In this document: one piece after another, positions 25,921 to 58,290 of the stretch | Numbering within the stretch: position 1 is the first letter of the stretch | Layout of the letters: every line of letters starts with the position of its first letter | Assembly: GCA_964036195.1 (NCBI GenBank) | Contig: OZ038459.1 | Coordinates: forward strand, 186,001-250,000 | DNA from: Sphaerolaimus hirsutus | Taxonomy: Eukaryota > Nematoda > Chromadorea > Monhysterida > Sphaerolaimidae | Reading direction: 5' to 3' | Length of the DNA: 64,000 nt | Program-made: the position numbers and the translations under genes | The notes under the pieces: generated by a model | The model's input: the letters and a program-made list of their open reading frames with translations, nothing else | Told to the model about the DNA's origin: nothing | Databases searched by the model: none

Positions 25921-26507
25921 TATTCGAGGATATACAGTAGTGGTTTTTTTTGCTATTCTACGTCTGCATACGTTATTAGTACTGGGAGTTCAAAAAATTT
26001 CTGGCGAAATTATAACCCCCCTCGAATTACCCCCCCCCCTCGAATTACCCCTCCCCCTCGAATTACCCCTCCTCAAAATTCTCACTCTGAAAAATAAACC
26101 CCCTGGGGGTATTTCGAAGAAATACGGTAAACACAATGCCGAAACAAAATGGTGCCCAAATGAATGTGTGTTTTTACACGTTGACATCGCTGTCATTCAA
26201 CATATTCATACCGTATTACCTCGAAATATCGTATTACCTCGTTACTTCTAAATTACTTCAATCAAACGTCTCCATTGAAGGGAATGATAATTAGTGAGAT
26301 TCCAATTTGAAATTGAATGGTGATCTTATAATACTAGTGTCAACTGGAGATTTCCATAAACGTTCAATGTTATTTTAATAACAGATGAGTTGACAGTCTG
26401 TAACACCTTCTAGCCACGCTAAATTTTGTCAAACATCGAAGCCACTGACAAATGTTGCGTCACTCATTTCAACTTTCTGACACTCTACGTAGCACACCTG
26501 TTAGCTC

Positions 26508-28495: not shown

Positions 28496-29432
28496 CAGGG
28501 TTGGTTTTATAAAAATCATTTGTATACAAATAGTATAAAAATGTATTTTATTTTTTTATGTTTCATTTTATTCCAAAATGTTAATAAAATAATAAAATGG
28601 AACCATTTTACAAAAAAATTACAGAAATTTTACAAAAAAATCAGAATCTTGCATGCAAGGGCAGCAAAATGTGATAATTAGACCTTAACATGAAAAACGT
28701 GTGACAAAATTTTTCATTACTTTGCAAAAGTAGCTTGCAGTAGGTATTGTTAGCTAGTTGCAAGTGGCAAGTCACAATTATCAATAACAATGTTTTGCAT
28801 TTTCAGTAGAAGGATTACTGTAGTGTGCTGGGCACATTGTAAAATGTCATGCAAAGTGTCAATTGTCATAACAAATGTAAAGTAAATAGTCAATTGACAT
28901 CTCAAATGTGTAAATTGTGTATCTGAATGTTATGGTATCCAAATCTTATGTCTTGGTATCCAAATATTATGTCTTTGTATCATAAGATGTTCACATAAGA
29001 TTTGGATACAAAAACAACAACAAGATTTGGAAACAAAAGATAAGATTTGGATACAATTTGCTTTACAGTTTCCATTTTAATTTTATATTTGTCATGACAA
29101 TTGACACTTTACTTAACATTTGTCATGACAATTGACACTTTGCATTTCATTTCATATGACATTTTGAGACTTCACAGGGTTTGGGACGGCCCCAGCTCCT
29201 CAAATAAACAGGTTGAACAATAAACAACAAGATAAAAAATTTACAAAAAATATGAATTCGTAAATATACAATTTTTACAAAAATATGAATTTGTATCCAA
29301 TTTTTTAAAAATTAGCAAAAATTCAAATTTTTATAATTTTTTTTTTAAATTTTCCATTTAATTTTATTCTTAAATTTTCCATTTTATTTTAATTTTATTT
29401 TTATATTTTTTTCTGAGATTTTGCCAACCCTG
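28496..29432. mobile_element. hAT-like element, TTTTATT/AAATTTT family
   Basis: Ends CAGGGTTGG and CCAACCCTG; perfect duplication GTTGTGAG (28488-28495, 29433-29440). AT-rich subterminal words. A foldback MITE copy (28826-29205) is inserted in it. Confidence 0.9.
28826..29205. mobile_element. Foldback MITE, GTAAAATGTCA family
   Basis: Left CATTGTAAAATGTCATGCAA, right TTCACAGGGTTTGGGACGGC; inverted arms with TTTGGATACAAA words in the centre (28980-29060). Confidence 0.75.
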
Positions 29433-32024: not shown

Positions 32025-34595
32025 TTGAAAACAACACCACTGGCCACTGCACAATAATGCATTTGCAAATTTCCTTTTGAATAAGAGAGCGCCCCATCTA
32101 CAAGTACCATACGTAGGTAAATATATTTGACAATAGGTCACTTTTTATTCACCCATACAAACACCTGCACACTGATTTTCAATCGTCAAATGAACAAATA
32201 TTTTGAGTGACCCCGATAAAACAATATACCTACATAGATTAGAATACCGCGGTCAATAGATAAAAATCTCGAACGCAGTAAATAAATGGATAAACAGTCG
32301 AATAAATCGGCCGGCTGCAAATAAAACCTGTCGCGTCAAAAATCAAAAATTCCAGTGGACAAAATTCGCGCGCGGAAGGTCACTTGATACAGGAAGAATT
32401 TTAGATAATGAAGTACAACATGTGGGTCACTCGGAGTTCAGCGGTGTTTTTGAATTCTGATGTAGGTGCATTATTCGCAGGTGAACGACTCATTACACGC
32501 ACACCTGTGTGAACTCGCAACTGCGAATGCTCTATTCCTTTGTGCGAATTTTGTGGATTTTTGTACAATTAGATTGACTACAGATTTGGTTTGCTGTCGA
32601 ATTGACTTTTTGGTGTTTTTCCTTTTTGTGTCTTCAAGTTGTTTTGAGGTTATAAAATTTATACCAGCTAATACATTCTTGTCGCTATGTTTATCATTGA
32701 TTTTTTGGTTGTGCTGTGTGTTCGTCATTTTTACGGCGTACATTCCATGCGGTTGTCACTTTTACACTTACCTAAATATTTTACGCAACACACAACCAAG
32801 GTAGGTTACATACATAGCAGTGTGATTTGCTGAACAGCAGTTTGTTTGCCTAGAGCGCGCACTTTGTTGCACAGTTGATAACGCCATTTAAAAATAAACG
32901 TAAATACTTTTTTTATAAACGATACCCAGGTATTTCAGGCGTTTATACTCACCTTAACCATAATATTACTTACCTATTTCTCCATGTAAACGGTCTGGGT
33001 GTTATACCATATGAAGGCACTCTTCAGTAAACTAGGTATTCTTAAACTTGTATAACACCTGGGCATAAGTTTCTTGGTTTTCTACAAACAACCGTATTAC
33101 CTCAAATAACCCCCCCCTTGAATAAACCCCCCCCCCCCTCGAATTATCCCCCCTCAAATTTTGCTGGCAAAATAATAAACCCCCTGGGGGTATTTCGAGG
33201 TAATACGGTACTCACATATTTTTTTCATAGTGTGCAGTCAACTCAATAAAAAATTTGCATGCTGCATAAACACAATGAGAAAAACCAGTCACATGTTCAA
33301 AACAGGTGAATATTTGATGTTTGTGCAGCTTTTATATGCAGTGTGAATATTTGAAATTTCCTAATTTTTTGCCATGAAGCATAGTACTTAGGAGGTTCTA
33401 TAAAGCTGTGCATTGGGCATTGTGCATGGGCAAATGGTTGGCAGAGAAATGCAGACGTTTTAATGTGTAGGACCGCAACTTTCTGTTTTCTGTTTTCTTT
33501 TTCCACTTTCCACAGGGAAAATTTTTTTCCATTCAGTTTTTACAGCTGCTCAATTTTTATCGATTTCCGTTTCGGTAAAAAAATTTTGACACCCTATTAA
33601 TGTGTAAGGTCAAATGTGAAATGTCATTGATAATGCCATACAAATTTTTTGAGTTTCCAAATGACAGTGATAAAATCCTTTCTCTTTTATTTTGATTGAC
33701 AATTTGTATGACATTTTACATGAATGTTTACAGGATGCGTGACTGCCACATTGTCCGTATCTTCTTCTATAGAATAATGTTGAGTATTTACATTACAGCT
33801 TTTTATACTCATACTTTAACAACTCTGATCTGTTGCAATGAACGCTCCCAGGTGCTAAAATATGTACATCAAATCATGCAAATACATATCACCACACCTA
33901 AATATGTACGGAACAAATGGCATTTAAATAGTAGTGAAATGTGATGCAAATCTGCCTGCGACCTTCTTTTCCGCTGAACCATCAAGTGGATCCCTCCAAT
34001 AAATTCAATAAAATTGTATTTATTTATTTACGTGGCCATGTATGGCGGCTGTGCCAAAATCTCCGGTATGAATTCTTTCGTGAAAATGTCCGAGTAATTA
34101 GCTGTTTTTTACGGAGGCATTTATAATAGATATGCATTAGTTAGCGTTTAGGTATTGTCCCAAGAATTTCAGAATTGTCCCAAGCTGCCCAAAATATTTC
34201 CCTAAACCTTCCCCTAAGGCTCTAAGTCTTCCCCTAAATATTTTTCTGAACAGAATTGCATCTTCCAGTTTCAAAAATAAAATAAATGCGCAATCTTTTT
34301 GACATCTGCCCATGGAAGAATTTGTCACGCAAATCAGCCAATTGCCCAATTTCACACCTGCGAACACCTGTCTTGATAACGAGAAATTGCACCCACATAT
34401 ACATTTATCCCTTCCCACCCATGGCTTTTTTATGTTGATCACCGTAAATTGTTTAAAGGATCGACCTATTTTAATATTTCTGTTGAAGGGGCCATTGTGG
34501 CCACGTCGTCGATTTTGAGAAACTCAGAAATCTGTTTTGAACACATTTGAGTTTTCCACACCCACAAAGCTTGATTTTTATGGCCGTCAACAGTA
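32025..34595. other. Intergenic, no gene recognised
   Basis: It holds a 117-bp CCGTATT palindrome (33092-33208) and a half copy of the TTTCCG family (33500-33597). The open frames are AT-rich and lack signal peptides or domains. Confidence 0.55.
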
Positions 34596-35650: not shown

Positions 35651-36175
35651 ATTGGAAAAGTGAGAAGAAAAGTTCTGAGCTGTAAGTGTAGTTATCAGTG
35701 ACAAGTGAAGTGACAAGTATTTTTATACACCTATTCTAATTTGTACAAATTGTGTTGTCAGTAGTGATGGAAAAGCGCCAGAAAAAAGGGCGCCAGGCGC
35801 CAATGGCGCCATGGCGCCATTCGGAAACTGGGCGCCAGGCGCCAATGGCGCCACGGAATCAGGGCGCCAAGCGCCAAGGGCGCCATGGCGCCATTTGAAA
35901 ATTAGGGCGCCAGGCGCCAAGAGTGCCAGTATAAATCACTGCGTACAATACCCTGCGTGTGCTAAAAATGTTTCTCCAACACTGTAATGCACTCATTCAC
36001 TTCCTTTTTCACGTTCCTCAGGACGATTTTTCCCATTCGAAATTGAAAATTCTAAATTCTAAATTGGAAAAAGTGAGAAGAAAAGTTCTGAGCTGTAAGT
36101 GTAGTTATCAGTGACAAGTGAAGTGACAAGTATTTTTATACACCTATACAAATTTGTACAAATTGTGTTGTCAGT
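35651..36175. repeat. 112-bp direct duplication flanking a truncated GGCGCC hAT copy
   Basis: 35651-35762 and 36063-36175 are nearly identical (GAAAAGTTCTGAGCTGTAAG..TTGTGTTGTCAGT). Between them is a GGCGCC element starting TAGTGATGGAAAAGCGCC at 35762 and truncated near 36035. Confidence 0.8.
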
Positions 36176-38656: not shown

Positions 38657-38744
38657 ATGCGGTTGAATGCGGCACTTTCACTAGTCTTTCCGGGCTTATT
38701 TCATCTGCTATTGCTAACCGAAGCCGCGTCAGATCCGCTCACAG
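38657..38744 (+). CDS. Exon 1: start codon and signal peptide of the PAN protein
   Basis: 29 codons plus one base. The hydrophobic core LVFPGLFHLLLL is followed by TEAASDPLT. The donor ACAG|GTTTTA leads to a short 64-base intron. A GATAAATA-like box lies about 30 bases upstream and CCAAT near 38580, neither convincing. Confidence 0.8.
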
Positions 38745-41700
38745 GTTTTATACAATCCATTTTTTCAAATTGTCAGTGCTTTTTAAAAAAAATTCCACTT
38801 TTTTTTAGAATGCGACAACTTGCCGAGAATGGTGGTGCAGCCGATGAACGACGACCAGAGGAGCAAAATCGACTTTTACTTCACTTCAGAGCCGTTAGAA
38901 GACTTTGGTTCGACGGGGACAATTTCTTAACAATAGGATACTAAGATGCCGTTTTTTCTTTAATTATTCTTGATTGAATATAAACCTCTGCCTTATGCTG
39001 CGATTACAGCTCGGGCGTAAAGCGGGAATTAGAGCTCAGCGTCGATTCGACGTGAAATGACAACGTGAAATGACGTCGTGAAATTAATTACACGAGTGTG
39101 GATCATGCTACGGGTCTACAATTTTTTAAGGATAATATATGAATCAATACCTTAATCGTGTCCAATACTGAGTGTTATCAGCCACAACTAGAGCGAATTG
39201 AAAAATTCAATTTTTATCATTTCACGTCATCATCATTTCACGTCACAGTGTCAGGGAACAACTTGACATTTCACGTCAGACTATTGCAAAGCAGCAAATT
39301 GATTACAGGTTAATGGATAAAGATATGGCGTTGTAATTTCAGTCAAAGAAAGCGCACATGCAGATGTTGCTTGTGTCCAAAGCTCATCAGTTTATTTTAA
39401 TTGTACTAGAAGTTATGAATTTTGGTGCAAACTTTTTTTATTTTACGCCCTAATTTTATGCAACTTACAGCGCATAATTGAAAAAATTGTGCTAAACTTG
39501 ATAACTCCCAGTACGATAGAAATAAACCCAGGAGCTTTGGACACAAGAAACGTCTGCATCTAAGCTTTATTTGACTGAAATAACAATGTTGTATCTTTAT
39601 CCATTCATCTGTAATTAATTTACGCCCAAAATCAATTTTACGCCAAGTCAATTTTTACGTCCGAGCTGTAATCGCAGCATTAACGGCAACGGAAAAAGTT
39701 CCCCATTGAATGTTGAGTTTACGAGTACCTAGTCTTGAGAAAAATTATCATACAAAACATCCGAAGTCGCCCTGCTCGTTTACCCCCTCCAAACCGCACC
39801 CTCCAGTTATCACCTCTCGCAGAAATGCAACTCAACCATACCCCTCAAAACCCCCCCCCCCCTCTTCACAGAAGCGTGCGCGCGCTTGTGCTACACAGCT
39901 CAATTCTGCTGGACGGCCGTCTACTCGCGGCTGGACCAAACTTGTTCCATCAGCTACACGCACAGAATAGACTGTCCAAAATTGGGGGCGCCCAGAGCTG
40001 TGGCCGCTGATGAAGCTGATGCTCAATACTTGCTCATTGGATGCATTGAATGCGCCGGCGCCGGAAGTCTGTGTTTTACGATGTTTCAGCGTGAACCATT
40101 GCATTTTGGGTTTTTTGGATGGGTTTTAGTTGGACATTTTGTTAAGTGGGACTGTATTCAAGCAGGGGGGGGTCTATTTTACACTTTCGTGGTTGAATAA
40201 TTGATTGGGCGGGAACATTACGCGTTCCGTCAACTTTACCGGGAATATTTTATTTGGCCAATATCAATGGAACTGAATTGGCATGAAAACCACACATTAT
40301 GCAACTGTTGCAGGTTTGTTCAAACTGGCGAATGGATATCTTCATTGTAAATAGTTATTCTCTATATGCGAGGTGTATTGACGCTTACCTGCCTAAAATA
40401 GCCACGATTTTTGATTATTTATATAATTACACTTACACTTACGCTTTCCAAAAATGATAGTTTTTAACTACTGTATTTAAGCGGACCATTCAAAGATCAT
40501 TGAGGGTAAGCTAATCGAAAGGCGATACAGGCACAAAACCACCGTCACAAAAAACCACTGCCAACGCAAAAATCAGCACATCATCCAAACCACCAACCCA
40601 AACATCTTCCATCAAAACCACAGTGGCACCAAAAACCCCACCAAAAACACCAGAGCACATCAAATCGATCACCAACGGCAGCAGCACGTTGTCGCCCCTG
40701 AACGAGTCCGGCGAGGTGTTGGACCTGACCACTTCGACCGCCAACGGCACCTTGCTGTCCGACGGCTTGGGCCCCGAGCAGAATGACACTTTGGAGAAGT
40801 TCATTGGACCCACAGCTTTGGGTCAGTATATTGGACATGTCGGGCTGGTTGGGCAGTGACATGTGAGCAGAGAAGTAGTAAAAATCAAAACTGGAGTCAA
40901 ATATAGGTGGTGGATCGAGTAATAAACACCTTCCAAGCCAAGTTCACCTGCCATTTTTTATTTGATAATTTGATGTTATATCTCCAGCTGTGGGAGCATT
41001 TTTACCGTATTTACTCGAATACTTCCCCCCACTGGAATCATTCCCCCCCCTCGAATAATTTCCCCCTGTTAGACAGGCGAGGAAAAAATAATTCCCCAAC
41101 TTGAATAATCCCCCCCCCCCGCATAATGAACGTGCTTTTAACAAAAACAATCGATGAAGCCAAACCATACAAAAGAGCGGTCTGCGGTTTGATTCATCGA
41201 ATGGAAATGCAGCACATTCGGGTGCAAAGATGCAATGGAATGTGCACTATCAATGGAAACCAAGTTACATGTGTATGTAGTGTGATAGAAACGTGCTTGA
41301 AAATTGTGATGACATAATAATCCCCCCACTTGAATAACCCCCCTCGAATAGTTTCCCCCTCAAAAATGTCTGACGAAAAAAAAATTCCCCGGGGGAATTA
41401 TTCGAGTAAATACGGTATTCATTCAGATTTTTCCCAGAGAAATAAAATTATATTTATTTTCATTTTGAGATATTTTCTGAGGTTACATTAATTTAGATTT
41501 TCTCAAACCCCCCCCCCCCCCGCCCCTACACAGCGATGGCTCCCTGCTTCACGCCTCGAACAGCACGCACCCTACCAGGCAGCATATTCGCCACGGAACA
41601 GCCAGTAACCTTGGCACTGTGCCAATGTCTGTGCGCGGCCAGCTGGTGCCAATCCCAGACCCTGTAAAGTTCCCTGTAAAATGTCAGATATCATGCAAAG

Positions 41701-44700
41701 TGTCAAAAGTCATATAAAATGCCCTGCAAAATGGCAAGACGGTTGCCATTTTGCAGGGCATTTTACGTGACTTTTGACACTTTGCATGACATTTTATATT
41801 TGACAGGGCATTTTACAGGGTGTGGGACTGCCCCCGGTTGACACAGCGCTACGAAAGTAATAGATGCCGCTCCATGAATTACGCGACTGGTGAGCGCAGG
41901 TGCCAATTGAATGGAATGGACCATGAAACTGGCGAGGAATTGGTCCCTGCTGGAGATGCGGAGATCTATATCACGTTTACGTGCTATAATAGCGAGTCAG
42001 ATATGACACAGGTGACCTTTTTTCCGCAGTTCCAGATAAATAACGTATTTCCGCGAATTACCCTCTGGAAGGTTATTTTTTCGTAGTGGAAATTTTGATG
42101 GGGGATTCAACCAAGGGGGTTTATAAATTCATAGTGGCCATTTTGAAGGAAGGTAGTGGGGGTTGTTTCTTCCCGCAGTTCGAGATAAATAGTTCTGCAC
42201 GCACAATGTACAGTGTTGTGTCAAATTGGGATTGTCTGGTCAAGGCAAACTTGACGTTTTACCTACACCGCATTTGACAAATTTGTGTGACATTTTGCAT
42301 TTTACAGGATGCGTGACTGGTCCCAGAATTTATGCTGTGTGGAAAAAACAGAAAAGCTTGTCAACTTGTTTTTCCATTATCGACGCATCAGCTGTCGGAA
42401 ATACTGATAATAAAATCATCTTAAATTCTCAAATATGTAATTATCTCCTTATACCTCAAATTATCCGCCCACCCAATAGACAAAGAAAAACCTATATCGT
42501 AGTATTTAGAAGAACAAACCTAAGGACAAAAGGAAAAATGACGACAAAGCAACAACAAGTGCCTATCATAAACTGGCAAGCAGCCAAGCCCCCTGTAAAA
42601 GACCCCCAACCCCCAGATCATAATCGACCAGTGCGAGGGGCGGCTGCCGCGCACAGACGAGCTGGTGACGGCGCGCGACAGCAACAGACAGGCGCTGCAG
42701 CTGGAGGGCGCCGCCGCGCAGCCGCAGCACGCCCCGCCGCCCATCACGACAGGTGTGCGCCGCTATGGATTCAGTTGACCGGTTAAAAGTGCCTTGGAAC
42801 TGATACACGTTCGGCACACACACATCAAATGCGCCATGGCCTTTTTGGCGCTCTGCTTTATTTTTGCGTGGCGCCAGGAACAAAATGCCAGGTCCTGGGG
42901 AATTGCGCTGGCGCCAAAGCAACAAGCACCATGGTGACTCTGGTCCTCGTGCAATTTTTCCCTGGCGCCATTGGCGCTTGGCGCTAGCGCCAAAACAAAA
43001 AGCGTCATGGTGCTTCTGGCATTTGCAGTGAACCGTTCGGCTCGCGACTGTCTTCGTATAGAAAACACATCTTTACTATCAGTGATATTTTTTGCACATC
43101 AGAAACACCTTTTCTTGAGTTAAATTTCCGTGCCGAACTTGATATTTATTTTATAAATTTCCAAAACACCACACCCAAATGTGCACCGTACTGCCGCACT
43201 GCACTGATACAGCTATAAGTAAAATTCATTGCCACATCAGTTCGTGTTCACATCGCATTGGCATCGTGGCCGTGGGTCAACGATGGGTAAGCTCCCCAAA
43301 AAACACACTTTCTGTGTTTTGAGTTTTTCAAAAATGAATACCTGTGTTTTGAGTTTTTTTATTGAAAAAAACTTGAGTAACTCTGTTTTTATTTCTGTGT
43401 TTTTTGTTAAAACTCAAGTTTTTTTCAGTTTTTTTTTCCTAAAAAACTCAAGTTTTTGTCTAAAAAATTCGAGTTTTTGTCCAAAAAACTCGAGTTTCCC
43501 CCCAAAAATTCTGATTTGCAGCATTTTGATGTGGAAACAGCAGTTTTCTTATACAATATTGGTTTTGCACATGTTTTAACCCCACATAACATGTGTATTC
43601 ATTCAAGTGTCAAAAAAGTCCGTAAGAATGTCCTCAGTGAGGACATCCACCCACATCACAACACCAGCATCAACAAAATGCTCACAAACGACAATTTACG
43701 CAGTAGTCCAAAATTCTTCAATGGATGTGCACTGTATGGAAGACCACAGAATTGATTTGAACTATAATTATATTTAAACATGTCCACCAGGAGATGTGCA
43801 TGCCATCTTTAATTTATTTTTTGTTCCATCATAAAATATGAATACATTATGTACATATTTACATGCTATACATGCACATCTTATCTTGTTTAGTTTAGGT
43901 AACTGAATTCATGTGCGTTCTGAAAATGTGTTCAACCACTACGCTGAAAAAAACTCAAAAAACTTTTCTGTGTTTCCGTGTTTCTGTGTAAAACAAAAAC
44001 ACAGAAACTCAATGAGTTTCTGTGTTCAATTTCTGTGTTTTTTCCATCGTTGGCCGTGGGTCAACTGGATTTCATTTCAATTCAGATTCTAGTTGACGGT
44101 CGCACTCGCGCTCGTCCATGTTCAAATTCAAATTATGTTTGCGGCGCGCACGTTAGAACCATGTTCCGCGACAGGTCAACTAAAACCTGAATTTCCATGG
44201 AAACATGGATGGTATGAACATGGACACATGATGTCAGTGTCAACTGGTAACAGTCAACTGTGATCCCCACGTACTAGAGGGCGAAAACGGGGCGCCGGCG
44301 CCGCGGCCGGTCTTGGTCACCTCCAACGAGATCGACGTGCGCTCGAGCGACAGTCGGCAGCTGCACGGCGACGTGTTCACCGCGCCCATCGGAGGCAGAC
44401 GCAGCGAGTTTGGCAGCGTGCCCATTCAATCTGTTTGCACCAGTGTGTCATGGTTCTGGCTTGACTTTTGAGTTCACTTTGACACGATTTTGTGTTCTTG
44501 TGCCAGTGTTATGTTACTTTCGGCCTTGGTTCAAATGATAAGCGGTCAATTGACGGGCAAGTGGTAATCTGTAATTCCAGTGATGTACACTTTTAATAGA
44601 TTGCAAGAATTATATTGACATCCACGAAGAACAAAGTCGACATCGTTCTGGCAATTATACACAACATAAACTAACAAATCTGATGACCATAAGAGACAGA

Positions 44701-47700
44701 AATTGATTTCAATTAAAATATGCAAACTTTTAACTAAAATTTGTAAATACCGTATTTCCTCGAAATACCCCCCCCCTCGAAATACCCCCCCCCCCTCGAA
44801 ATACCCCCCCTCAAAATGGACACTATGAACTTATAAACACCCCCCTCGAAATACCGAAATATTTGTCATCCGGGCAATGCAGAACACACGTTAAAAACGA
44901 TGACTCTGTTATGTGAGAACAGTGTTTGTACGTCTACACACTTATAAATGTCTTTAGAGTCTTACAAATGGCGATTTTTGTTGCATTTTTCAACGTCTGC
45001 GTACGTTTCAGACGACATTTTAGTACTGGGATTTCAAAAAATTTCTGGCGAAATAATAAACCCCCCCCTCGAAATACCCCCCCCCCCCTCGTTTAACCCC
45101 CCCTCAAAATTCTCACTCTGAAACAATAAACAATATTTCGAGGAAATACGGTATTTACTCGTCGGGTCATTTGACTAGGTAAGTGCGGAATCACACCCAG
45201 CGGAATATTTTTCAATAGATGATCATACATTCAAGCTTGAACTTCATCACTTTGTATATTCTGTTCAACCAAATTTAGTTGCCTTCCGAGCTATAGAAAG
45301 AGTACAAAATGGCACTTGCCGAAGTGGGAATCGAACTCGCGCATCGCGTATAGAATAGTGGAGGCCTGGCCGCTGGGGGGAAAAAGGGTCGCTTTAAGAA
45401 TATGGTATTTATCGAGCAGGCGGAGTTCGGCTCCGCTTCTGAAGTGGTCATCGGTGCCAGATCATGATTTAAAAATGTATAATCCGACTGCGGCATCACC
45501 TCTGATTGTAATATTTGTGCAGATTCGTTCAGCATTTGTCGGGTGGTCCAAATAAAGGTTCATGGGTGGAAGTATGAAAGGTAGTTAGCGAATTAAAAAT
45601 TTCGGGATTGCAAACCGTATTATTGAGCAGCATTTGTATTCATATTTTGTGTTCAGTACTATAATTCAGCGTTGTTTCACATTAGATTTTGTTTGAATTG
45701 ATGCTTTAATATTTAAATATTGTTCATGTTTCACTAAAAACAGTCAATTTCAAATGAAAAATGTGTGAGAAAAGTTGGTGAACAAATAGAACGGCAGCCT
45801 CCAATAGAAGAAATACGGTAATTATCTGCATCATCAACTTTTTTTAGAGAATTTTGATAACATCTTTATGTTTTGTGAACTTCCGAGTTTTTATGACATT
45901 ACATGTTCATCGCTGAATACCTTTTTTATTATTCTGCCTTTGAACATTTATTTGAACCACACCACAATTCACAATCTCTATAAACATCATTATAAACATT
46001 GACTTTTTTGTATCCTTTATGTCATAATTTATATTTGACCCACCCTGCTCAATTCACCATCTAAAAAAGTGTTCTTTGCCTGCCTCCATAGCGAGTGAAC
46101 ATGCAAATGCTGCACTAATCTCCTGTGCAAACAAAAGTGGCCATTGGTCAGCCATAATTACCGTATTTCTAACGTAATTCTAAAGCGACCCTTTTTCCAC
46201 CCAACCGGCCTGGCTCTAATTGAGTTGATGGCAGAATCATGTCCAAATGCACAAGCCACAAACATTCAAAACAAACAACATACCGTATTTCCTCGAAATA
46301 CCCCCCCGGGGGTGATTGTTTCATAGTGGTCCCGAGAGGGGGGGGGGGTCAAACGAGGGGGGGGGGGGTATTTCGAGGGGGGGGGGGTCATTATTTCACT
46401 AGAAAATTTTTGAAAACCAAGTACGAAATTGTCGTCTGAAACGTACGCAGACGTCGGAAAATGCAACAAAAACCGCCATTTATAAGGTTCTGTAGACTAA
46501 TATTAGTATGTACACTGTTCTAACGTGACACCGACATTGTTTTAACGTGTGTTCTGCAGTACACAGAACACAAACTACAGTTATTGTCATGTACGTTCAC
46601 TTTACACTCAATTTGGGGGGGGTATTTTTAGGGGGGGGGTGATTGTTTCTTAGTGGTCTCGAGAGGGGGGGGGGGTCAAACGAGGGGGGGGGGTATTTCG
46701 AGGAAATACGGTAGCAGTCCGTGCAGATTTTGAACATCGTTCTCCAATCACTCAACCATAATCCAAAATCGAAAAGCAAACCAGGGGCTACTCCCATAAC
46801 CTGTAAAATGTCAAATGTGTCAAAAGTATCGAAAGTCATGTGAAATATTATTTAAAGTAACAAAAAATAGTACTGGACGTTTGACAGTGTGCGTGCGTGA
46901 CATTTTACATTTCACAGGGCATTTCACAGTGTCCGACAGTGGCACCAGTTGACATTTGACCATGCGTGTGAACTAGTTTGCCTACTGCCAACCCGAAACT
47001 GTGCCGCGCAGACGACGTGTCGCACTGCTTCGAAGTGCTGCCGCTGCACGTGTTCGCGGGGGTGGCCATCGCGCACGAGCAGGAGGTCACGTTCGAGCAG
47101 TGCCGCTGCGTGTGCGCCACCAGCATGCACCGCTACGGCTTCCACTGCAAGTCCGCCCTGTTTCATAGGTGGGTTGTGTGGGGGGGACAATATAGTAATT
47201 TAATTTTCTAAAATTTTCTGCATTTCTAAAAATACCCACTTTTACGATTTCCGGCGACAATATAGTAATTTACTCACATTTACCCATGAGTAAAAGTAAT
47301 AAATAAATAATTTACGTTTTCTGTAATCACCTGTGAGTCAAAAATAAATACTTTACGCTTACGTTTACTTTTGGAAACGTACAGTACTTTTAACAACTCT
47401 GTCACGGAATTTGCGCGTTCTTCCCACGTGTAAATCAACGCAGTGCAAAATAACGACGGATTCGGGGGGGGGGTATAAAAAGGGTAATGAAGCGGCAGAA
47501 CAGGTGCACAAGATTGTGCAATCAACTATTTACAATAATGGTGTTTCAAAAGTGTTAAAAACACATAAAAAATTTCGCAATCAAGTAATAACAAATCAAC
47601 AGAAAATCACAAAAAAACACGAAGATCCAAATCACAGCCAAAAAAGTGGTGAAGCGTCGGGAAGTGTCTTCACGCCGACGCTTCCCGACGCTTCACGCAG

Positions 47701-50700
47701 CACCGCACACATCACGAATATATGCGTGAAGACAATTCACGCTTCTTACTACCGCACTGGCACTTAAATGTATACAATGAAGCGTGTGGAAGCGCCAGCG
47801 TCGTGAAGTGTCTTCACAAGTTTGGATGCACGTGAACCACGCGGTGAAGCTAGGTGAAACGTGTGGAAGACACTTCACCGAACATTTCGTGATGCTGGTG
47901 GAAGCGTGTGGAAGTGCGTCGCCTCAGGCGCATCTAGCCCGCTTGCACACGCACCACGAAGCCATTGTTTGCTGTGAAGTGTGAATACTTGTTCACACCG
48001 TTGAGCATCATGCACAGGACCACGGGGGCATGCGCGCTCTTCGACGCCGACAGAAACAGCGAGCCGGCGCTGCTGAGACGAGTGCCCGCAGACGACTCCG
48101 TTGTTTATATCGGCCTTGCCTGTGACCGTTGGTTGATTGTTTCTAGGGCTTTCGGCTTAGATATGCGGCTAGATTTCCAAGTGGACAAGTGCCATCAAAA
48201 GTGCCTAGTGATATGGCTGTGTCGAATTAAGTGACAAGTAAACCTGTAGTTGTCACTTATGTTCACTTGTCACCCCACTCACCACTTTATTTAACACTTT
48301 TCCCTCCACTTTTGCATACAGAATATTGGTTCCAGCGATGTAAGACTAACTTTAAATGACATTCTACATCAGAAGAATAAACTCTCGTAATGACATATAA
48401 AAGATGTATTTACATGGTCGGGCTGAAAAGTCCCCGGGCAGTGCTCGCCATTCGCGCTAGGGGTAAGCTACGGTCATAAAATTTCAACACGTTAATATAT
48501 CAGATGTTTTGAGTTATCACCCAAAATTTCACCCCTCTAGCTCCACCCACTGAGGAACTGTGGTGGTTACAGTTTCGGTCATTTTGTACTGATGTACAAA
48601 TGGTGCTCTAGCTCAACGCTGCTTTAAGTCGTGATCATGAAACTTTGGCTAGTGTGAGCCACCAGTGTTGGCAATGTGCCAACACTAACCAACATTAGCT
48701 ATGATATCATAAGCCTAGTCCATATTGTCATTACTGTCACTACTCTCTCTCACAACCACATCCATCATTCTGCCTCTCCTTCTCAAAATAGCCCCCCTTG
48801 GAGTCTACTCACTGCTGTTGAACACAGGTAATGTCCACTACACATTAGTAATGAAACATAGGGCAATTTTTTCCACATAATTCATTTACTGCACATTACA
48901 AAACAACATTAAAATCACTGCAATACAACATGATCTCAGATGATCACCAAAAACATCCACCACAGTTCCCACATTTCTTGCACATCACCCTGATCTGCAT
49001 ATTAATCTTACCTTAAAAGCAATGATGTTGATGAAAGTGTTGAATACTATAAGCACATTGTGAACACTGGTGGCTTACACTAGCCAAAGTTTCATAATCA
49101 CAACTAAAAGCAGCGTTGGGCTAGAGCACCATTTGTACATCAGTACAAAATGACCAAAATTTTAACCCCCACAGTTCCGCAGTGGGTGGAGCTAGAGGGT
49201 TGAAATTTTGGGTGAAAACTCAAAACACCTGATATATAAACGTGTTGAAATTTTATGTCCGTAGCTTACCCCTAGCGCGAATGGCGAGCACTGCCCGGGG
49301 ACTTTTCAGCCCGACCATGTACAATGTAGATACCTAATATGAAGTCCCCATTTCTGAATGTAAATATATGAATATGAATTTGCCATTTGTGAACTTCTAA
49401 ACAATCAAAAATCGTAAAGCCTCTACGGAGCATCATCATTGCTAGCTAGCCCCACACCTGCCTACACATATTCATCTACCCACTAGTGATGGAAAGGTAC
49501 CGGGGCACCGGTGCCCCGGTGCTGGCCACCGAAGGCCACCAGCACCGGTGCTGGTGCGGTGCGGTGCCCTTTTTCGAGGGTGCCCTGCCGGTGCCGTTGC
49601 CATTTTTTTAGAATGGCACCGGTGCGGGTGCGGTGCGGTGCCATTTTTCCCTGTGCCTTTTCCATCACTACTACGCACTGTATAACAGCGGACGGGTTCG
49701 GGGAGGAACGCCTGCAAGGCAGCTGCGGTCTGTGGTACGAAAACCAGCAGCTCAGCTCCATCGACGACAAGAAGACGACCGCGCGGCCGGGCGAAGGCAG
49801 CACCCCCGCAGAGCGCCTAGCCGTCCACAATCAGATCATCGCGCAGGTTCGCATCTGCTTTGACACTCTGTCAAATCTGTGCACTGCACATGAGCAGCAA
49901 TAACGATTAAAATTTACTGTCCAGTGGGAAAAAATTTCAATTCCAAATTTGAAACATTCTCCAGAACTAGTCACTTGACCCCCCCCCCCAACACAGATCG
50001 TGCGTCAGGCGCTGGTCAGAGGGGGTCCCCCGAAACCGATCAACCTCGACCTGCATTCCAAGTACACAGAGGGTGGTCAGTTACTGTTAACCACCCAACC
50101 TACAGCCATCACATGGCTCCCGCAAAGTGCCAACAACAGAATAAAGAACCATGGTACTATTACGGTGCCGGCCTTCCCGTCACAACCATTGCCTCAATAC
50201 TTCCATAGATATTTGTACGACAGAAATACGACTAGAAGCGGTATATAATCTAAACACTTGTCTTTTGAAAGTGCACTTTTTCTTGAATATAGATATCTGA
50301 TAGACGTGAAACTAAACATACCTAGGTATTTAGGTATGTAGTCTGATCTAAAGCACTGATTCCCAATATAAATTGTCACACAAATAGACAGCAGCTCTTC
50401 GAAGTCAAATATGCCAAAGTGATTCAAGGAGCTCCTTTCAAATTGCCAAAAAATCTTTCTAAGGTGACCCGTTAAAAATAATATCAATTTTAACTATGCT
50501 AGCCTAATTTCCCCTTGACAAGATCAAACTACCTATTTATATCCCAGTAATAAATTCCCAATCAATCAAAGTTCACAATTCATCCACTCATCCAAAACGT
50601 AACATAAATAATCCCCCCCCCAGCCAACACGGACTACTGTTTTGCTGAGCACGAGCAATCGGTGCTCAAAGGTGCTGGCTCAGCCATTCTGAAATCGGTC

Positions 50701-53700
50701 ACAGTGGCTGAATGCAAGTGTGAATGTGCAATGGCTGAGTATGCCTATGGTTTCAGGTGAGTGATTAGCATTTAAAAATCTCTTTGAGATTTATATTTTA
50801 AAAATCTTAGAAAATCACCAAAAATAAAAGATTTTCTGAGATTTATATTTTTTCACTATTTGCTAGAGAGATTTAATTATATTTTCTTTCTGAGAGATTT
50901 TCTGAGATTTGTAAAAATATCAGAAAATCTCTCAAATTATGATATTTATATTTATTTCCAGGTTTTTTTAGAGAGATTTAATTATATTTTTTTGTTGAGA
51001 GATTTTCTGAGATTATATTGAATGATATTTTCCAAAAATTGATAATTTTTTCAATGCTATGAGTGATGCATGCAGTGATTGTCAATGTGTGCTTTATTCT
51101 TATTGATGTCACTGTGACAAAACGACATGCCACTGCATGACGTCACTGCTTCATCATCACAGCAACATCAGTGTTTATTGTGTGTTGCCATGTCATGCAG
51201 TTCTTAATGCCAACACGTTGTTGGTGTGAACATGCTTCACTATACCACCAGATGCCTCAAAATGCTTGAAATGTCTACATGGATTTTTCACGATGATCAT
51301 AGTTTGCAATGAAAGACAGTCCACTTATTATCTCACAAAGTGTGTGGAAGTGTCTAGCTTGTCCCTATTTCCCATGCCCACTTTTCTTGTGCTACTTTTT
51401 TGATGAATTATTTCCAAGCAACCAAAAACAGCTTTGAGTAGTAGTGGCAGCTATTAAAACACAACACTCACAGTTACAGTCAAAAATTTCAACTATTTCA
51501 ATCTTCAGGTGCCTCTCTGCCCAGTACTACTATGACAGCAGGGTGTGTTTGCTGAACAGGCAGACAGCAAGGACCCTCGGCAGGGACTTTATGAGAACTG
51601 ATAACAGAGCTAAATTGAGCTATTTTGAGTTCCATTGTGCTGGAAACGGTGCGTTATGGATGTTGATCTGTTTTCCGCTTCTGGGAAGGTTTCCATAGAA
51701 AGTTTATGGGTCTGGGGTACTTTCCATTGACACTTCAAGATTGGGTTATTGTGGTCATCTTCTTTGTGGCTTGACCTACTTTCAATTGGAATTCCAATTT
51801 GATTCAACATTGCAGCAAAAGCAGTGAAAACCTACAAGGATATACACTGTGATGAATATAGCAAGCCATTGACAAACATTGACAGTGGAGTGGAACAGAG
51901 CAAAGGCACTACCAAATTGGGCAGTGGTTCCAAACCAAAACAGCAATCAGACTCAGATGGTGAAACTGATGAGTCACCTGAAACTGACAATGTGAAAACT
52001 ACTACCAAAACATGGTTGGTGATTAGGGGTTTAGTAGGGGGGTGGGGGGGGGGTTACCCCCCCCCAAATCCGCCAGCCATCTATCTATTTCAGAGGCCCA
52101 CTCAGCTATCCATCCATCCCAGAGGCAAAATTTGGACTACTATCCCCTAACCCCCCCCCCCAATTGGCCAGCATCTATCTACCTGGAGCGATTTTAAAGA
52201 AATTTTGCCCCAATTTTGCTGAAAATCACTAATTTTCATATCTTTTAATAGTTTTTCACCTTCAAAATTCCAATTCATGTTCTTATTGCCTATTGTTTTG
52301 ACTATTTTTTGTACTATATGTACTTATATACCCATTGTTAGCTGTTTTTCTCCTACTTTTAGCGATTTGTATCCCTTTTCTTCCTTCTATACCTTGAAAA
52401 AGCCAATATATTGAACCCCCGCGAACCCCCCCCCCCAACCCCCCCCCCCCCAAAAAAAATAATACCTTTTTTTCAGCTATCTATCCCTCAAGAGGAGCGA
52501 TTTATTATCTATATGAACTTCCGCGGGGGTCAAAATCTACAAAACCCCTGTTGGTGTTAGAACTATGTCACAAACCTATAAAAATCCATCAAATTCGATG
52601 GAACCATGCAGGACCATCTCAGCCAGTACATCAGCAACAGAAAGAGCACCAGGTGTTGCAGACAAAACATACAGCACTGCTGTGCACACCACTGTGAGTG
52701 CAGATAATGTAAATGGAGGGACAACCGAAAATGTAAATGGAGCAAGGAAGACGAGGACTGCCACAACTGTGGAGAAGGTTGTTTGGGGGCTGAGTTTTGT
52801 TTGTTTCAAGTTTCTTGCAAACGTTACTATCTTGTGTGACCAATGCAATTTCAAATGCAGACTACCACAACAACACCAAAGCCAACCACTACCACAACCA
52901 CAACAACACCAAAGCCAACAACAACAACAAAAACAACAACAAAATCAAGAACAACAACAACAACAGCCAGATCCACCACTACAGCAGAAAGCAGCACATT
53001 GGCACCCACAACAACCACTGAGGCACCCACACAGCCACCTACAACAACCACAGCATCAACCAAAGCACCAGCAACCACAACTACTACACCCAGCCCTCCA
53101 TTGCCAAGCCCAGTTACTAAAGGGAAACAAAGCTTCAAGCAGATCAATGAAAAGGACACTGTCAGACCGTGGCCGGTAAATATGCCCGCATTTGTCACTG
53201 GCCAGCCTGAATTTGGCAGTAAAGATGGTGGCAATGATCTTTGGGCGAGCACTACATCTAAAGTCATATTTGGCTCAGCGCCAAGTTCTGGATCAGGACC
53301 CAGCTCTGGCTCAAGTGGTCTGCTGGTGGTGGCACACACTCCAGCACGCCCACCTGTGGGGGATGGGGGTGTGGAGTTGTCAGCTACCACAGAACCTGCC
53401 AATTTTGATGACCCCTACATGGTGCTACCTGACTTGGCAAACTTCATCACTGGCCCTTGTAGATACAGTGCATATTATCAGTCGAGATTTATTGCGGATA
53501 CTAAGATTTTGGAGTTGCCTGTTAGTTGGGTGGGAATGTGTGCTTTGCAGAGCGTGATTTCTTACAAGTTAAGTGGCAAACGCAATGCAATGAAACCCAA
53601 TGTGTGAAAATGGAGAGAAAAAATTATAAATTATCACATTAACTTGGTTAATCACTCCTTAATCACTCCCCTTTATTGCTACCATATTTCCGTGAAATAC

Positions 53701-54838
53701 CCCTATGAAATAGTTCACCTCAAAATTGCCACTATGAATTAATAACCCCCACCACCTCGAAATACCCCTACCCGATACGTGTAAATAGAATGTGTCTAAT
53801 TGCCAAAAACTGCACTGCATAGTTGTTTAAACGTATTTACTTTTACTCGATAAATACGTATACTCGAGTACCGAGTAAATGCGTTTCCTCCGAAAAAAGT
53901 TCCAGTACTCGCTTTTACGTATACTTTTTCAAAGTACGCGAGTACATAAAACGTATTTTCGATAGTCTTTTATATCTATTTTTGAAGGTATAGAAGGAAA
54001 AATGAGAGAATATGCTTAAAAAATAGGGGGGAAATAGTCGAAAATGAATATACAAGCCCATATATAGCCAAAATTTGCGTAAAATATGCAGAAAGTTATG
54101 AATATTAGTGATTTTGAGTGAAAATTGGGGTGACATTTCTCAAAAATACTCACGTTTACGTTTTAAATGGGGAAAAGTACGTTCACTCATGTTTACTCAT
54201 GAGTAAAAGTAAAAAATATATACTTTACGTTTTCTGTACTCAAGGGGTGAGTAAAAAATAAATACTTTACGTTTACGTATACTTTGAAAAAAGTTCGGTA
54301 CTTTTAACAACTCTGCTGCACTGTGTGATCTGTGTAATGCTGAACACACGTTAAAAACAGTGACTGTGTTTCATTAGAACAGGGTTACTTAACTACCATC
54401 TACATAAGTATACTCGGCGGACATCACGCCTAGCATGAAAACCTACCATAAGATAATGAATAAAATATTGTCATAAATTTCGTTATTAATTATTCGATAG
54501 TATAAATGAAACATTATGATGAAAAATGTATAATTTTTGGTTCATTATTCATATGGGTTATGGTAGGTTTGCATACAGAGTGTGATGTGGGCCGTGTACA
54601 CTTAGCTCTATGAGTGTATGCCGCACAGGTGTCTAGCGCGGCGATGTGTTTCCGCGCGTGCGCCCTGAAGAAGTGCCGCAGCGCGAACATGCGCAAGCCG
54701 CTCGGCACGGCGGCGGGCGGTCGCTTGAACGTGTGCGAGCTGTACTCGTCGGCGCACAGCGACTACTTGTTCGCAGACAGACTCGCCCCCGACCGAGACA
54801 GCGTCTACTTCGATGCCATCAACTGCTTGAGACTGTGA
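38657..54838 (+). CDS. Large secreted multi-PAN (apple) domain protein with mucin-like linker, 18 exons
   Basis: Exons: 38657-38744, 38809-38907, 39872-40066, 40531-40821, 41534-41663, 41819-42011, 42617-42752, 44278-44442, 47012-47168, 48018-48127, 49689-49846, 49997-50240, 50624-50756, 51509-51648, 51816-52014, 52612-52777, 52861-53520, 54629-54838. Every junction keeps frame; the sum is about 1157 residues. Order: signal peptide (MRLNAALSLVFPGLFHLLLL), PAN1, Pro/Thr linker, PAN2, linker, PAN3, linker, PAN4, acidic linker, Thr-rich mucin segment, Gly/Ser linker, PAN5. PAN domains are disulfide-bonded binding modules of extracellular proteins; in ecdysozoans they are common in cuticle and apical-matrix proteins. 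No ZP domain, protease or membrane anchor is seen, so a secreted matrix or mucin-like role is inferred. Less certain: the ends of exons 3 and 8, and whether the TGA at 54836 is the true end. Exons are more GC-rich than the introns, which are largely transposon. Confidence 0.82.
38809..40066 (+). CDS. PAN domain 1 (exons 2-3)
   Basis: Exon 2 (38809-38907) encodes ECDNLPRMVV...EPLEDF. Exon 3 (from 39872) continues EACARLCYTAQFCWTAVYS and then DQTCSISYTHRIDC, ending YLLIGC. The C-x(3)-C-x(5)-C cluster and the closing cysteine fit PAN. Donors at 40066, 40069-40071 or 40090 all keep phase 1; I chose the first. The intron between them carries a Harbinger-like MITE. Confidence 0.8.
38996..39679. mobile_element. 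PIF/Harbinger-like MITE in intron 2 of the PAN gene
   Basis: Inverted ends TGCTGCGATTACAGCTCGG and its inverse, flanked by a 3-bp TTA duplication, the target typical of PIF/Harbinger. Subterminal words CGTGAAATGA/TCATTTCACG occur repeatedly (39050-39080, 39215-39285). No transposase. Confidence 0.85.
40531..40821 (+). CDS. Exon 4: Thr/Pro/Ser-rich linker
   Basis: 97 codons between GATACAG|GC and TTTGG|GTCAGT. Low complexity, rich in KTT/PPKTP repeats, with N-glycosylation sequons (NGS, NES, NGT, NDT). It is probably an O-/N-glycosylated spacer between PAN1 and PAN2. Confidence 0.75.
41005..41416. mobile_element. CCGTATTTACTCGAATA-type MITE
   Basis: TA|CCGTATTTACTCGAATA at the left and the inverse ATTCGAGTAAATACGG|TA at the right. 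Subterminal words CTCGAATAATTCCCCC. Sister family to the CTCGAAATACCCCC MITE. Lies in intron 4 of the PAN gene. Confidence 0.85.
41534..42011 (+). CDS. PAN domain 2 (exons 5-6), split by a transposon-derived intron
   Basis: Exon 5 encodes APCFTPRTARTLPGS...VTLALCQCLCAAS. Exon 6 encodes RYESNRCRSMNYATGERRCQ and ends TFTCYNSESDMTQ at CAG|GTGACC. The only phase-compatible splice that keeps the cysteine cluster is ACCCT|GTAAAG (41664) to TTTTACAG|GG (41819), both phase 2. The transposon arms left in the exons would then add 13 residues, WCQSQTLVWDCPR, between CAAS and LTQRY. Confidence 0.72.
41644..41840. mobile_element. Foldback MITE inside coding exon, acting as an intron
   Basis: Near-perfect inverted arms meet at ACGGTT (about 41739). 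The ends GGTGCCAATCCCAGACCCTG and its inverse carry a 5' splice site on one side and a 3' splice site on the other. Removing the whole element joins GCCAGC to TTGACA in frame, the likely ancestral exon. Confidence 0.85.
42617..44442 (+). CDS. Exons 7-8: linker between PAN2 and PAN3
   Basis: Exon 7 (42617-42752, phase 0 to 1) encodes IIIDQCEGRLPRTDELVTAR and an Ala/Gln/Pro tail. Exon 8 (44278-44442) encodes EGENGAPAPRPVLVTSNEID and ends near VPIQSVCT. Both are strongly GC-rich. The intron between them holds a 776-bp hAT element. Confidence 0.7.
43277..44052. mobile_element. hAT-like element, TGTGTTTTGAGTTTTT family
   Basis: Ends TCAACGATGGG and TTCCATCGTTG; perfect duplication GCCGTGGG (43269-43276, 44053-44060). 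Subterminal words AACTCAAGTTTTT and AAAACACAGAAACTC. Intron 7 of the PAN gene. Confidence 0.85.
44750..45151 (+). mobile_element. CCGTATTTCCTCGAAATAC MITE
   Basis: TA duplication, CCGTATTTCCTCGAAATACC left end and inverse right end, with the internal block of the family. Intron 8 of the PAN gene. Confidence 0.88.
45310..45400 (-). repeat. tRNA-like (SINE-type) segment
   Basis: On the minus strand, GCGAGTTCGATTCCCAC matches an RNA polymerase III B box, and AGCGGCCAGGCC upstream resembles an A box. Stems do not pair well enough for a working tRNA. The adjoining word AAAGCGACCCTTTTTCC recurs at 46175-46200, so this is probably a tRNA-derived dispersed repeat. Confidence 0.4.
46283..46711 (-). 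mobile_element. CCGTATTTCCTCGAAATAC MITE (reverse orientation)
   Basis: TA duplication; nearly identical interior to 31192-31644 and 58933-59376, indicating recent spread. Intron 8 of the PAN gene. Confidence 0.9.
46779..46949. mobile_element. Foldback MITE, GTAAAATGTCA family
   Basis: Left GGCTACTCCCATAACCTGTAAAATG and right CATTTCACAGTGTCCGACAG. Arms are diverged. It ends about 60 bases upstream of exon 9 of the PAN gene. Confidence 0.7.
47012..48127 (+). CDS. PAN domain 3 (exons 9-10)
   Basis: Exon 9 (47012-47168) encodes DDVSHCFEVLPLHVFAG, EQCRCVCATSMHRYGFHC and KSALFH. Exon 10 (48018-48127) joins in phase 2 to give HRTTGACALFDADRNSEPAL and ends IGLACD at ACC|GTTGGT. The C..C.C.C...C spacing equals that of PAN4. 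An alternative earlier start at 46977 cannot be excluded. Confidence 0.8.
48413..49319. mobile_element. Palindromic Tc1/mariner-like MITE
   Basis: Inverted arms of at least 140 bp (CATGGTCGGGCTGAAAAGTC...), TA duplication on both sides, 907 bp. No transposase frame. Intron 10 of the PAN gene. Confidence 0.8.
49484..49670. mobile_element. Short hAT-like MITE, GGCACC family, beside a splice acceptor
   Basis: Ends TAGTGATGGAAAGG and CTTTTCCATCACTA; duplications CTACCCAC/CTACGCAC (7 of 8). The whole 187 bp is GGCACC/GGTGCC words. Confidence 0.88.
49689..50240 (+). CDS. Exons 11-12: linker between PAN3 and PAN4
   Basis: Exon 11 (49689-49846) encodes DGFGEERLQGSCGLWYENQQ and an Ala/Arg stretch ending NQIIAQ. 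Exon 12 (49997-50240) begins IVRQALVRGGPPKPINLDLH and ends NTTRSG. No domain recognised. The acceptor of exon 11 lies only 18 bases after the end of a hAT insertion. Confidence 0.75.
50624..51648 (+). CDS. PAN domain 4 (exons 13-14)
   Basis: Exon 13 (50624-50756) encodes NTDYCFAEHEQSV and VAECKCECAMAEYAYGF, with donor TTCAG|GTGAGT. Exon 14 (51509-51648) encodes RCLSAQYYYDSRVCLLNRQT and ends FEFHCAGN. All six PAN cysteine positions are present. This is the clearest PAN domain in the window. Confidence 0.88.
51816..52777 (+). CDS. Exons 15-16: acidic and Thr/Ser-rich linker
   Basis: Exon 15 (51816-52014) encodes KTYKDIHCDEYSKPL followed by a SDSDGETDESPETDN acidic run. Exon 16 (52612-52777) encodes TISASTSATERAPG and a NVNGGTTENVNGA repeat. 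The phase-2 junction makes a single Trp codon. The intron between them is almost wholly a hAT element (52024-52550). Confidence 0.78.
52024..52550. mobile_element. hAT-like element, CTATCTATC family, filling an intron
   Basis: Left end TAGGGGTTTAG, right end AAAACCCCTG; duplications TTGGTGAT/TTGGTGTT (7 of 8). It takes up 527 of the 597 bases between exons 15 and 16 and starts 9 bases after exon 15. Confidence 0.85.
52861..53520 (+). CDS. Exon 17: mucin-like Thr-rich segment, Gly/Ser linker and start of PAN5
   Basis: 220 codons. Residues 1-85 are Thr/Pro/Lys runs (TTTTTPKPTTTTTTTTPKP...), likely heavily O-glycosylated. A SAPSSGSGPSSGSSG spacer follows. From 53451, GPCRYSAYYQSRFIADTKIL opens PAN5. 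The donor TTGCCT|GTTAGT is phase 0. Reading past it gives VSWVGMC and a late stop at 53605, which I take as intron. Confidence 0.8.
53690..54420 (+). mobile_element. CCGTATT MITE split by a GTTTACGT hAT element
   Basis: The sequence before 53810 and after 54323 is the decayed C-rich MITE (CGTGAAATACCCC..., AACACACGTTAAAAACAGTG). The inserted hAT element (53818-54315) has ends CATAGTTGTTTAAACG and TTTTAACAACTCTG and a perfect duplication CTGCACTG. Intron 17 of the PAN gene. Confidence 0.85.
54629..54838 (+). CDS. Exon 18: second half of PAN domain 5 and stop codon
   Basis: CGCACAG|GTG opens VSSAAMCFRACALKKCRSAN and ends FDAINCLRL-stop. It completes the PAN5 cysteine pattern (C-x(3)-C-x(4)-C...C...C) right up to the stop, so the protein ends with a PAN domain. 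A cryptic donor (GACT|GTGATT) just before the stop could in principle extend it. Confidence 0.8.
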   Translation: MSSAAMCFRACALKKCRSANMRKPLGTAAGGRLNVCELYSSAHSDYLFADRLAPDRDSVYFDAINCLRL

Positions 54839-57770: not shown

Positions 57771-57913
57771 GGCCGCACTCAAACAGCTGATCGAAACATC
57801 CAGTCAGGAAAGCAGCGCCAGAAATCAACCCAGCAACCCAAACACAGGTGTGAAATTCAATTGACCCAAAACGGTGTGCCCGATTTTGGCAGTTCCGCCC
57901 ATCGCATACTGGG

Positions 57914-58290
57914 GGCAGTCCCAAGCCCTGTAAATTTTCTGTAAAGTGCCCTGTAAAGTGTCAGTGAAGTCTAAATGTAAAGTCAAATGGAAAGTCAAAT
58001 GTCAATTGTCATAAATACAAAGTATCAAATGTAAAGTCAAATGTATCCAAATCGTATTTTGCATATCCAAATCTTATGTTGCAAAAAATATTTGGATACA
58101 AAAACATGAGCTTTGGATAAGATTTGGATACACAAATGACACTTAACTTTACATTTGACACTTTGAATGAAAATTTACACTTGATTTTGCATTTGACTTT
58201 ACGTTTGACACTTTATTTTACACTTTACAGGGCTTGGGACTGAAACCTGGTGCTAGTCCCAGACCCTGTAGAATGTCAAATGTCAAACCC
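57914..58290. mobile_element. Foldback MITE copy in the 5' intron of the secreted-protein gene
   Basis: GGGGGCAGTCCCAAGCCCTG at the left and CAGGGCTTGGGACTG at the right (58230-58245), then a second partial left end GGTGCTAGTCCCAGACCCTG (58251). Central TTTGGATACA words as in 28826-29205. Confidence 0.8.

Follow-up and report, generated by a model that had tools for sequence, protein, structure and literature searches.

Within a 64,000-nucleotide stretch of the nematode Sphaerolaimus hirsutus genome (contig OZ038459.1, positions 186,001 to 250,000; hereafter, the window), we examined a short foldback element that resembles a miniature inverted-repeat transposable element (MITE) and lies in a coding exon of a gene with several PAN domains. 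The reading frames of the + strand could be joined into a phase-consistent model of this gene, running from a signal-peptide-like start (38657) through PAN1, a Thr/Ser/Pro-rich linker and PAN2 to PAN3 (to 48127), with a Thr-rich linker and PAN4 downstream at 52.8-54.8 kb. The gene product is probably secreted. We placed the exon ends from the reading frames, and several of the donors are weak. The predicted exons and the element are given below, with scores against Pfam PAN_1 (PF00024), whose gathering cut-off is 21.4 bits.

38657..38744, + strand: exon A, start codon and signal-peptide-like sequence, predicted by eye
38809..38907, + strand: exon B, first half of PAN1, predicted
39872..40066, + strand: exon C, second half of PAN1, predicted; the open reading frame (ORF) 39739-40197 scores 16.4 bits
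40531..40821, + strand: exon D, Thr/Ser/Pro-rich linker, predicted
41534..41642, + strand: first half of the PAN2 exon (AMAPCFTPRT...CQCLCAA plus two bases of the next codon), with a phase-1 acceptor CTACACAG before 41534
41643..41837, no strand assigned: foldback (MITE-like) element, 195 bp, with termini CTGG on the left and CCGG on the right (CCAG in most copies); outer boundary uncertain by ~6 bp
41838..41995, + strand: second half of the PAN2 exon (LTQRYESNRCRSMNYATGERRCQLN...FTCYN), 3' end uncertain; the ORF 41790-42083 alone scores 20.6 bits
47012..47168, + strand: first exon of PAN3, start at 46977 or 47012, uninterrupted at the position of the insertion in PAN2
48018..48127, + strand: second exon of PAN3, 3' end uncertain
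53440..53520, + strand: first half of PAN4, its frame running on upstream as the Thr-rich linker
54629..54831, + strand: second half of PAN4, 3' end approximate

With their halves joined, PAN3 and PAN4 scored 37.7 and 26.5 bits, and PAN1 fell short of the cut-off at 19.2 bits. Since exons A-D and PAN3 all stay open and agree in phase, the gene looks intact elsewhere. Protein database searches recovered no relatives of the Thr-rich linker and PAN4 ORF at E 0.001 (among 7973 scored candidates sharing most words), nor of the PAN2-PAN3 region of the 715-aa gene model at E 0.01 (403 candidates). The 90-aa PAN2 joined without the element drew no candidate at all from this protein collection, which we suspect to be poor in animal proteins, and a PDB sequence search with the joined PAN2 gave none at E 10.

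The element is a strong hairpin. Its arms, 41640-41737 and 41743-41840, are 98 nt each, 85% complementary and separated by a 5-nt spacer, and its folding energy as DNA is -81.4 kcal/mol, compared with -29.0 +/- 3.4 in 200 shuffles (z -15.5). A sequence-only reading of the locus had already recognised this inverted repeat, the PAN-like coding on either side of it in different frames (CQCLCAAS up to 41643, LTQRYESNRCRSMNY from 41838) and the halt of the unspliced frame at the TAA of 41665-41667, and all of these observations held. The same reading took CCCTGTAAA and TTTACAGGG for the ends of the element; the alignment of family termini instead shows this pair to be internal, about 20 bp inside the element on either side, and sets the ends at 41643 and 41837.

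These ends were defined by comparison with other copies. Among 13 arms aligned from the window, 10 reach a common terminus, CNGGNGNCAGTCCCANACCCTGTA; the terminus is CTGG in most arms and CAGG or CCGG in some. Searched with up to three mismatches, this terminus matched the window eight times, compared with no match in 100 shuffles; two of the matches, 41643-41666 (+) and 41814-41837 (-), are the ends of the PAN2 element. A profile of these 13 arms recovers them by construction (at least 33.0 bits) and additionally matches the terminus at 19625-19652 (14.8 bits), which the pattern search finds as well; the top profile match in the reversed window was 25.8 bits, and weaker matches carry no weight alone. 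Overall, the window holds eight family loci, the PAN2 copy included, and 41643..41837 is a copy of this short hairpin-forming transposon that lies within coding sequence. The other seven loci are:

17657..19651, no strand assigned: copy interrupted by other sequence (pattern and profile)
28828..29195, no strand assigned: copy outside the predicted exons (profile)
33693..33749, - strand: single arm (profile)
42251..42327, - strand: single arm in the intron after PAN2 (profile)
46782..46948, no strand assigned: copy in the intron just before PAN3 (pattern and profile)
57909..58249, no strand assigned: copy whose right end is overlapped by the partial copy from 58247 (pattern and profile)
58247..58285, + strand: single partial arm (pattern and profile)

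All seven lie outside the predicted exons, which cover the multi-PAN gene only, and none of them fills a predicted intron of that gene; no other copy in the window is seen to make an intron. The exact family-end pattern had no match in viral contigs or in prokaryote genome contigs (records of the organism's own genome were possibly excluded), and an Rfam scan of the window at the gathering threshold returned no family. Two of the copies have unusual arrangements. In 57909-58285, two termini meet head to tail and have the CTG at 58247-58249 in common, as though one family copy had integrated at the end of a second. In the copy at 17657-19651, the halves are separated by a loop segment (~17740-18393) bounded by TAGGGTTGG and CCAACCCTA, and about 1.15 kb lies between two TTCAGGG motifs (near 18470 and 19628), an arrangement that resembles a nested insertion with a 7-bp duplication.

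We next considered what the PAN2 exon looked like before the element arrived. PAN3 of the same gene traverses the corresponding site (CRCVCATSMHRYGFHCKS) without an intron, and in an alignment of the four PAN domains the additional residues of PAN2 form a unique insert; the element therefore most likely entered a continuous exon. Joining the flanks of PAN2 without the element points the same way: five joins (AAS+QRY, AA+RY, AAS+RY, AAS+LTQRY and A+QRY), which were picked to be in frame and do not represent a literal removal of 41643-41837, all exceeded the PAN_1 cut-off, at 28.4-31.4 bits. We thus infer that the PAN2 exon was continuous prior to the insertion. The sequence-only reading had described a foldback transposon turned into an intron inside a PAN exon; the part of this description that stands is a repeat interrupting what looks like a formerly continuous exon, whereas the splice proposed for it (20.3 bits) is not supported.

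Several observations weigh against a simple insertion. Literal excision of 41643-41837 leaves the frame broken, as 195 nt is 0 mod 3 and 2 mod 3 is required; the in-frame flank joins are therefore hypothetical and presuppose that a duplication was lost, that a small indel arose or that the element is longer. No target-site duplication rose above chance at the four copies examined (best exact matches of 4, 5, 3 and 4 bp): the best match at the PAN2 copy is 4 bp, and 201 of 400 random site pairs match over at least 4 bp. Protein database searches yielded no empty-site orthologue. Finally, two GC-AG splice pairs (32.4 and 30.1 bits) and one GT-AG pair (30.8 bits) match the scores of the flank joins, and a clean splice may therefore exist.

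A longer element, 41638-41843 (206 nt), restores the frame on removal and gives the joined protein CLCAQRYESNRC, with a PAN_1 score of 29.8 bits. In the arm alignment, a TGTCAAC outside the terminus is common to the right arm of the PAN2 element and the copy ending at 46948, and is missing from the other copies. TTGACA likewise directly follows the right terminus at 41838-41843 and at 46949-46954, which may reflect a longer-ended subfamily or chance. The age of the insertion could not be read from its arms. The left and right arms are 87.5% identical over 88 nt, and each matches the 17657 arm at 89.4% identity over a smaller overlap of 66 nt; since neither arm is clearly the nearest relative of the other and the two may have differed already prior to insertion, we rejected a date based on their divergence.

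Taken together, a transposon insertion in a coding exon is well supported. We consider it probable that a copy of this non-autonomous foldback (MITE-like) DNA transposon inserted into the PAN2 coding exon of the multi-PAN gene and broke its reading frame. If the allele still yields a protein, the route would be an imperfect one: splice sites inside or close to the element would be used, or the PAN2 exon would be skipped; otherwise, the copy would be a polymorphic or damaging insertion.

An allele that is damaged, polymorphic or relieved by exon skipping has about an even chance of being the correct account, with PAN2 lost altogether or its exon skipped so that exon D joins PAN3. The stop codon inside the element breaks the frame, consistent with damage. 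Skipping would offer a still active allele an in-frame way out, as joining 40821 to 47012 is frame-preserving and translation continues into PAN3; moreover, the PAN2 and PAN3 exons can both begin in phase 1 immediately ahead of their CF. Against these outcomes, both halves of PAN2 appear well preserved, and 47012 is only one of two candidate acceptors, the other, 46977, being in a different phase.

That the element has become a new intron, by whichever pair of sites, is a tentative reading to which we give somewhat less than even weight. Combining GT and GC donors in 41600-41699 with AG acceptors in 41760-41874 yielded 23 frame-keeping pairs, 16 of them GT-AG, although 41664/41818 had been presented as the sole pair found to keep both the frame and the cysteine cluster. 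Inverted repeats containing CTGTAAA automatically supply both GT and AG, and caution is warranted, as in-frame pairs are easily found. We scored 13 of the 23 products with PAN_1 (11 GT-AG and 2 GC-AG), leaving aside the 10 pairs with donors 41601, 41605, 41614 and 41619 since these delete the conserved CQCLC helix:

GT-AG 41646/41857: 30.8 bits
GT-AG 41664/41863: 26.0 bits
GT-AG 41631/41857: 25.8 bits
GT-AG 41664/41857: 24.4 bits
GT-AG 41646/41818: 22.4 bits
GT-AG 41646/41806: 22.1 bits
GT-AG 41631/41818: 20.7 bits
GT-AG 41664/41818, the pair of the sequence-only reading: 20.3 bits
GT-AG 41631/41806: 20.2 bits
GT-AG 41664/41806: 19.8 bits
GT-AG 41631/41863: 18.5 bits
GC-AG 41635/41846: 32.4 bits
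GC-AG 41638/41846: 30.1 bits

If the element is spliced, sites other than 41664 and 41818 taken together are the better candidates, though we regard their use as rather unlikely. Donor 41646, in the left terminus (CTG/GTGCCA), would keep just three element bases in the 5' exon and stays in frame with acceptor 41818 (22.4 bits) or with the exonic acceptor 41857 (30.8 bits). However, a purine-rich stretch (GCGCTACGAAAG) precedes 41857, whose use brings in an odd cysteine, and the natural end-to-end combination, 41646/41846 (201 nt), does not keep the frame. The GC-AG pairs 41638/41846 and 41635/41846 are in frame and score 30.1 and 32.4 bits, and the former leaves no element base in the exons, its splicing being equally hypothetical. 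GC splice donors usually require a strong consensus, which neither 41638 nor 41635 has.

The intron originally proposed is the following:

41664..41818, + strand: CCT/GTAAAG ... TTTTACAG/GG, phase 2, 155 nt, one of the 23 frame-keeping pairs and without particular support

We consider it very unlikely that exactly these sites serve to splice the element out as a working intron, which would add at least 13 residues with two cysteines to PAN2. The pair is indeed GT-AG, in phase 2 on both sides and stop-free, its acceptor TTTTACAG is fair, and introners (repeat families that make introns on insertion) that add codons exist in print (PMC9860276, Fig. 2F legend). Yet its product scores 20.3 bits, under the cut-off and no better than the downstream half alone (20.6 bits), and ranks eighth among the 11 scored GT-AG pairs; of the 12 other scored pairs, 9 score higher and 3 lower. 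Nor does this splice keep the cysteine cluster, as had been claimed for it: it places 25 residues between cysteines that are spaced 10 apart in PAN3, 5 in PAN1 and 4 in PAN4. Moreover, 40 bases of the element would be left in the mRNA, of which the 5' exon would keep 21 nt and the 3' exon 19 nt. Scored with a metazoan matrix, donor 41664 ranks above the two other in-frame GT donors considered (41631 and 41646) and outscores 4 of the 7 other donors of the gene model, but reaches only the 79th percentile among all GTs in the window; since four of the model's own donors score lower, the donor score argues little in either direction. In the predicted pre-mRNA hairpin, donor 41664 and acceptor 41818 are both fully paired, and with each other (probability ~1), which speaks against their use, although such pairing could alternatively draw the two splice sites together.

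Other explanations, be it an old intron or a problem of assembly or annotation, seem improbable even as a group. An old non-repeat intron later filled by the element is very unlikely, and we disfavour it: an acceptor-like CCCCCGGTTGACACAG/CGC does lie immediately outside the right terminus, but no 5' intron sequence remains between the codon AGC and the left terminus, PAN3 has no intron at the corresponding place, and from 41600 on the only GT donor in frame with the CCCCCGGTTGACACAG acceptor is 41605, whose use deletes the PAN helix.

The element resembles MITEs and foldback elements in being short and devoid of coding capacity, with long arms, a tiny loop and several copies in 64 kb, and its terminal inverted repeats are common to several of the window copies. 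It differs from MITEs in that a target-site duplication was not recognised at the four family copies examined; such a duplication is usual for MITEs, yet not defining for every foldback element. As an exon-borne transposon with splice-like termini, it also recalls the Ds and dSpm insertions of maize, which are spliced from exons. There, splicing was demonstrated with transcripts; for the PAN2 element it is a prediction.

The closest published parallel is the introner, and we compared the element with the survey by Gozashti et al. 2022 (PMC9860276). Like introners described there, it is a non-autonomous element with terminal inverted repeats that lies in coding sequence and carries splice-like motifs in these repeats. 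The survey includes families that have terminal inverted repeats and lack a target-site duplication (Acanthoeca), and families that add codons (Aureococcus); the idea of a foldback element turned intron is therefore possible in kind. The survey also asked for at least four similar introns per family in a genome and for family similarity whose start lies no further than 5 bases into the exon or 10 bases into the intron at each splice site (PMC9860276). The PAN2 element, by contrast, is a single exon locus. With splicing at 41664/41818, the family similarity would reach 21 nt into one exon and 19 nt into the other, compared with the roughly five exonic bases accepted in the survey. Among animals and land plants, introners were reported in only two groups (PMC9860276). 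A new animal introner family would consist of foldback elements that lack a recognisable target-site duplication and provide donor and acceptor from their inverted termini, splitting a PAN module here and making further introns elsewhere in the genome; this is a long shot in our estimate. A dated, RNA-supported animal case would help with the question of intron birth.

Beyond this family, the window contains further repeats. The intron just before PAN2 holds a distinct inverted-repeat element (41003-41417), with 27-nt arms that are 96% complementary (TACCGTATTTACTCGAATA...) and an abundance of CCCCCTCGAATA-like units. A run of undetermined bases (X in translation) at ~9380-9590 is probably a scaffold gap. 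Arrays of TGGCGCC or CTTGGCGCC-like units occur at 5478-5611, 6066-6292, 8608-8664 and 35788-35921, and many short arrays of the CCCCC(T)CGAATA/CCCCCTCGAAA type are scattered across the window, for example at 26017-26072, 44758-44810 and 58657-58720.

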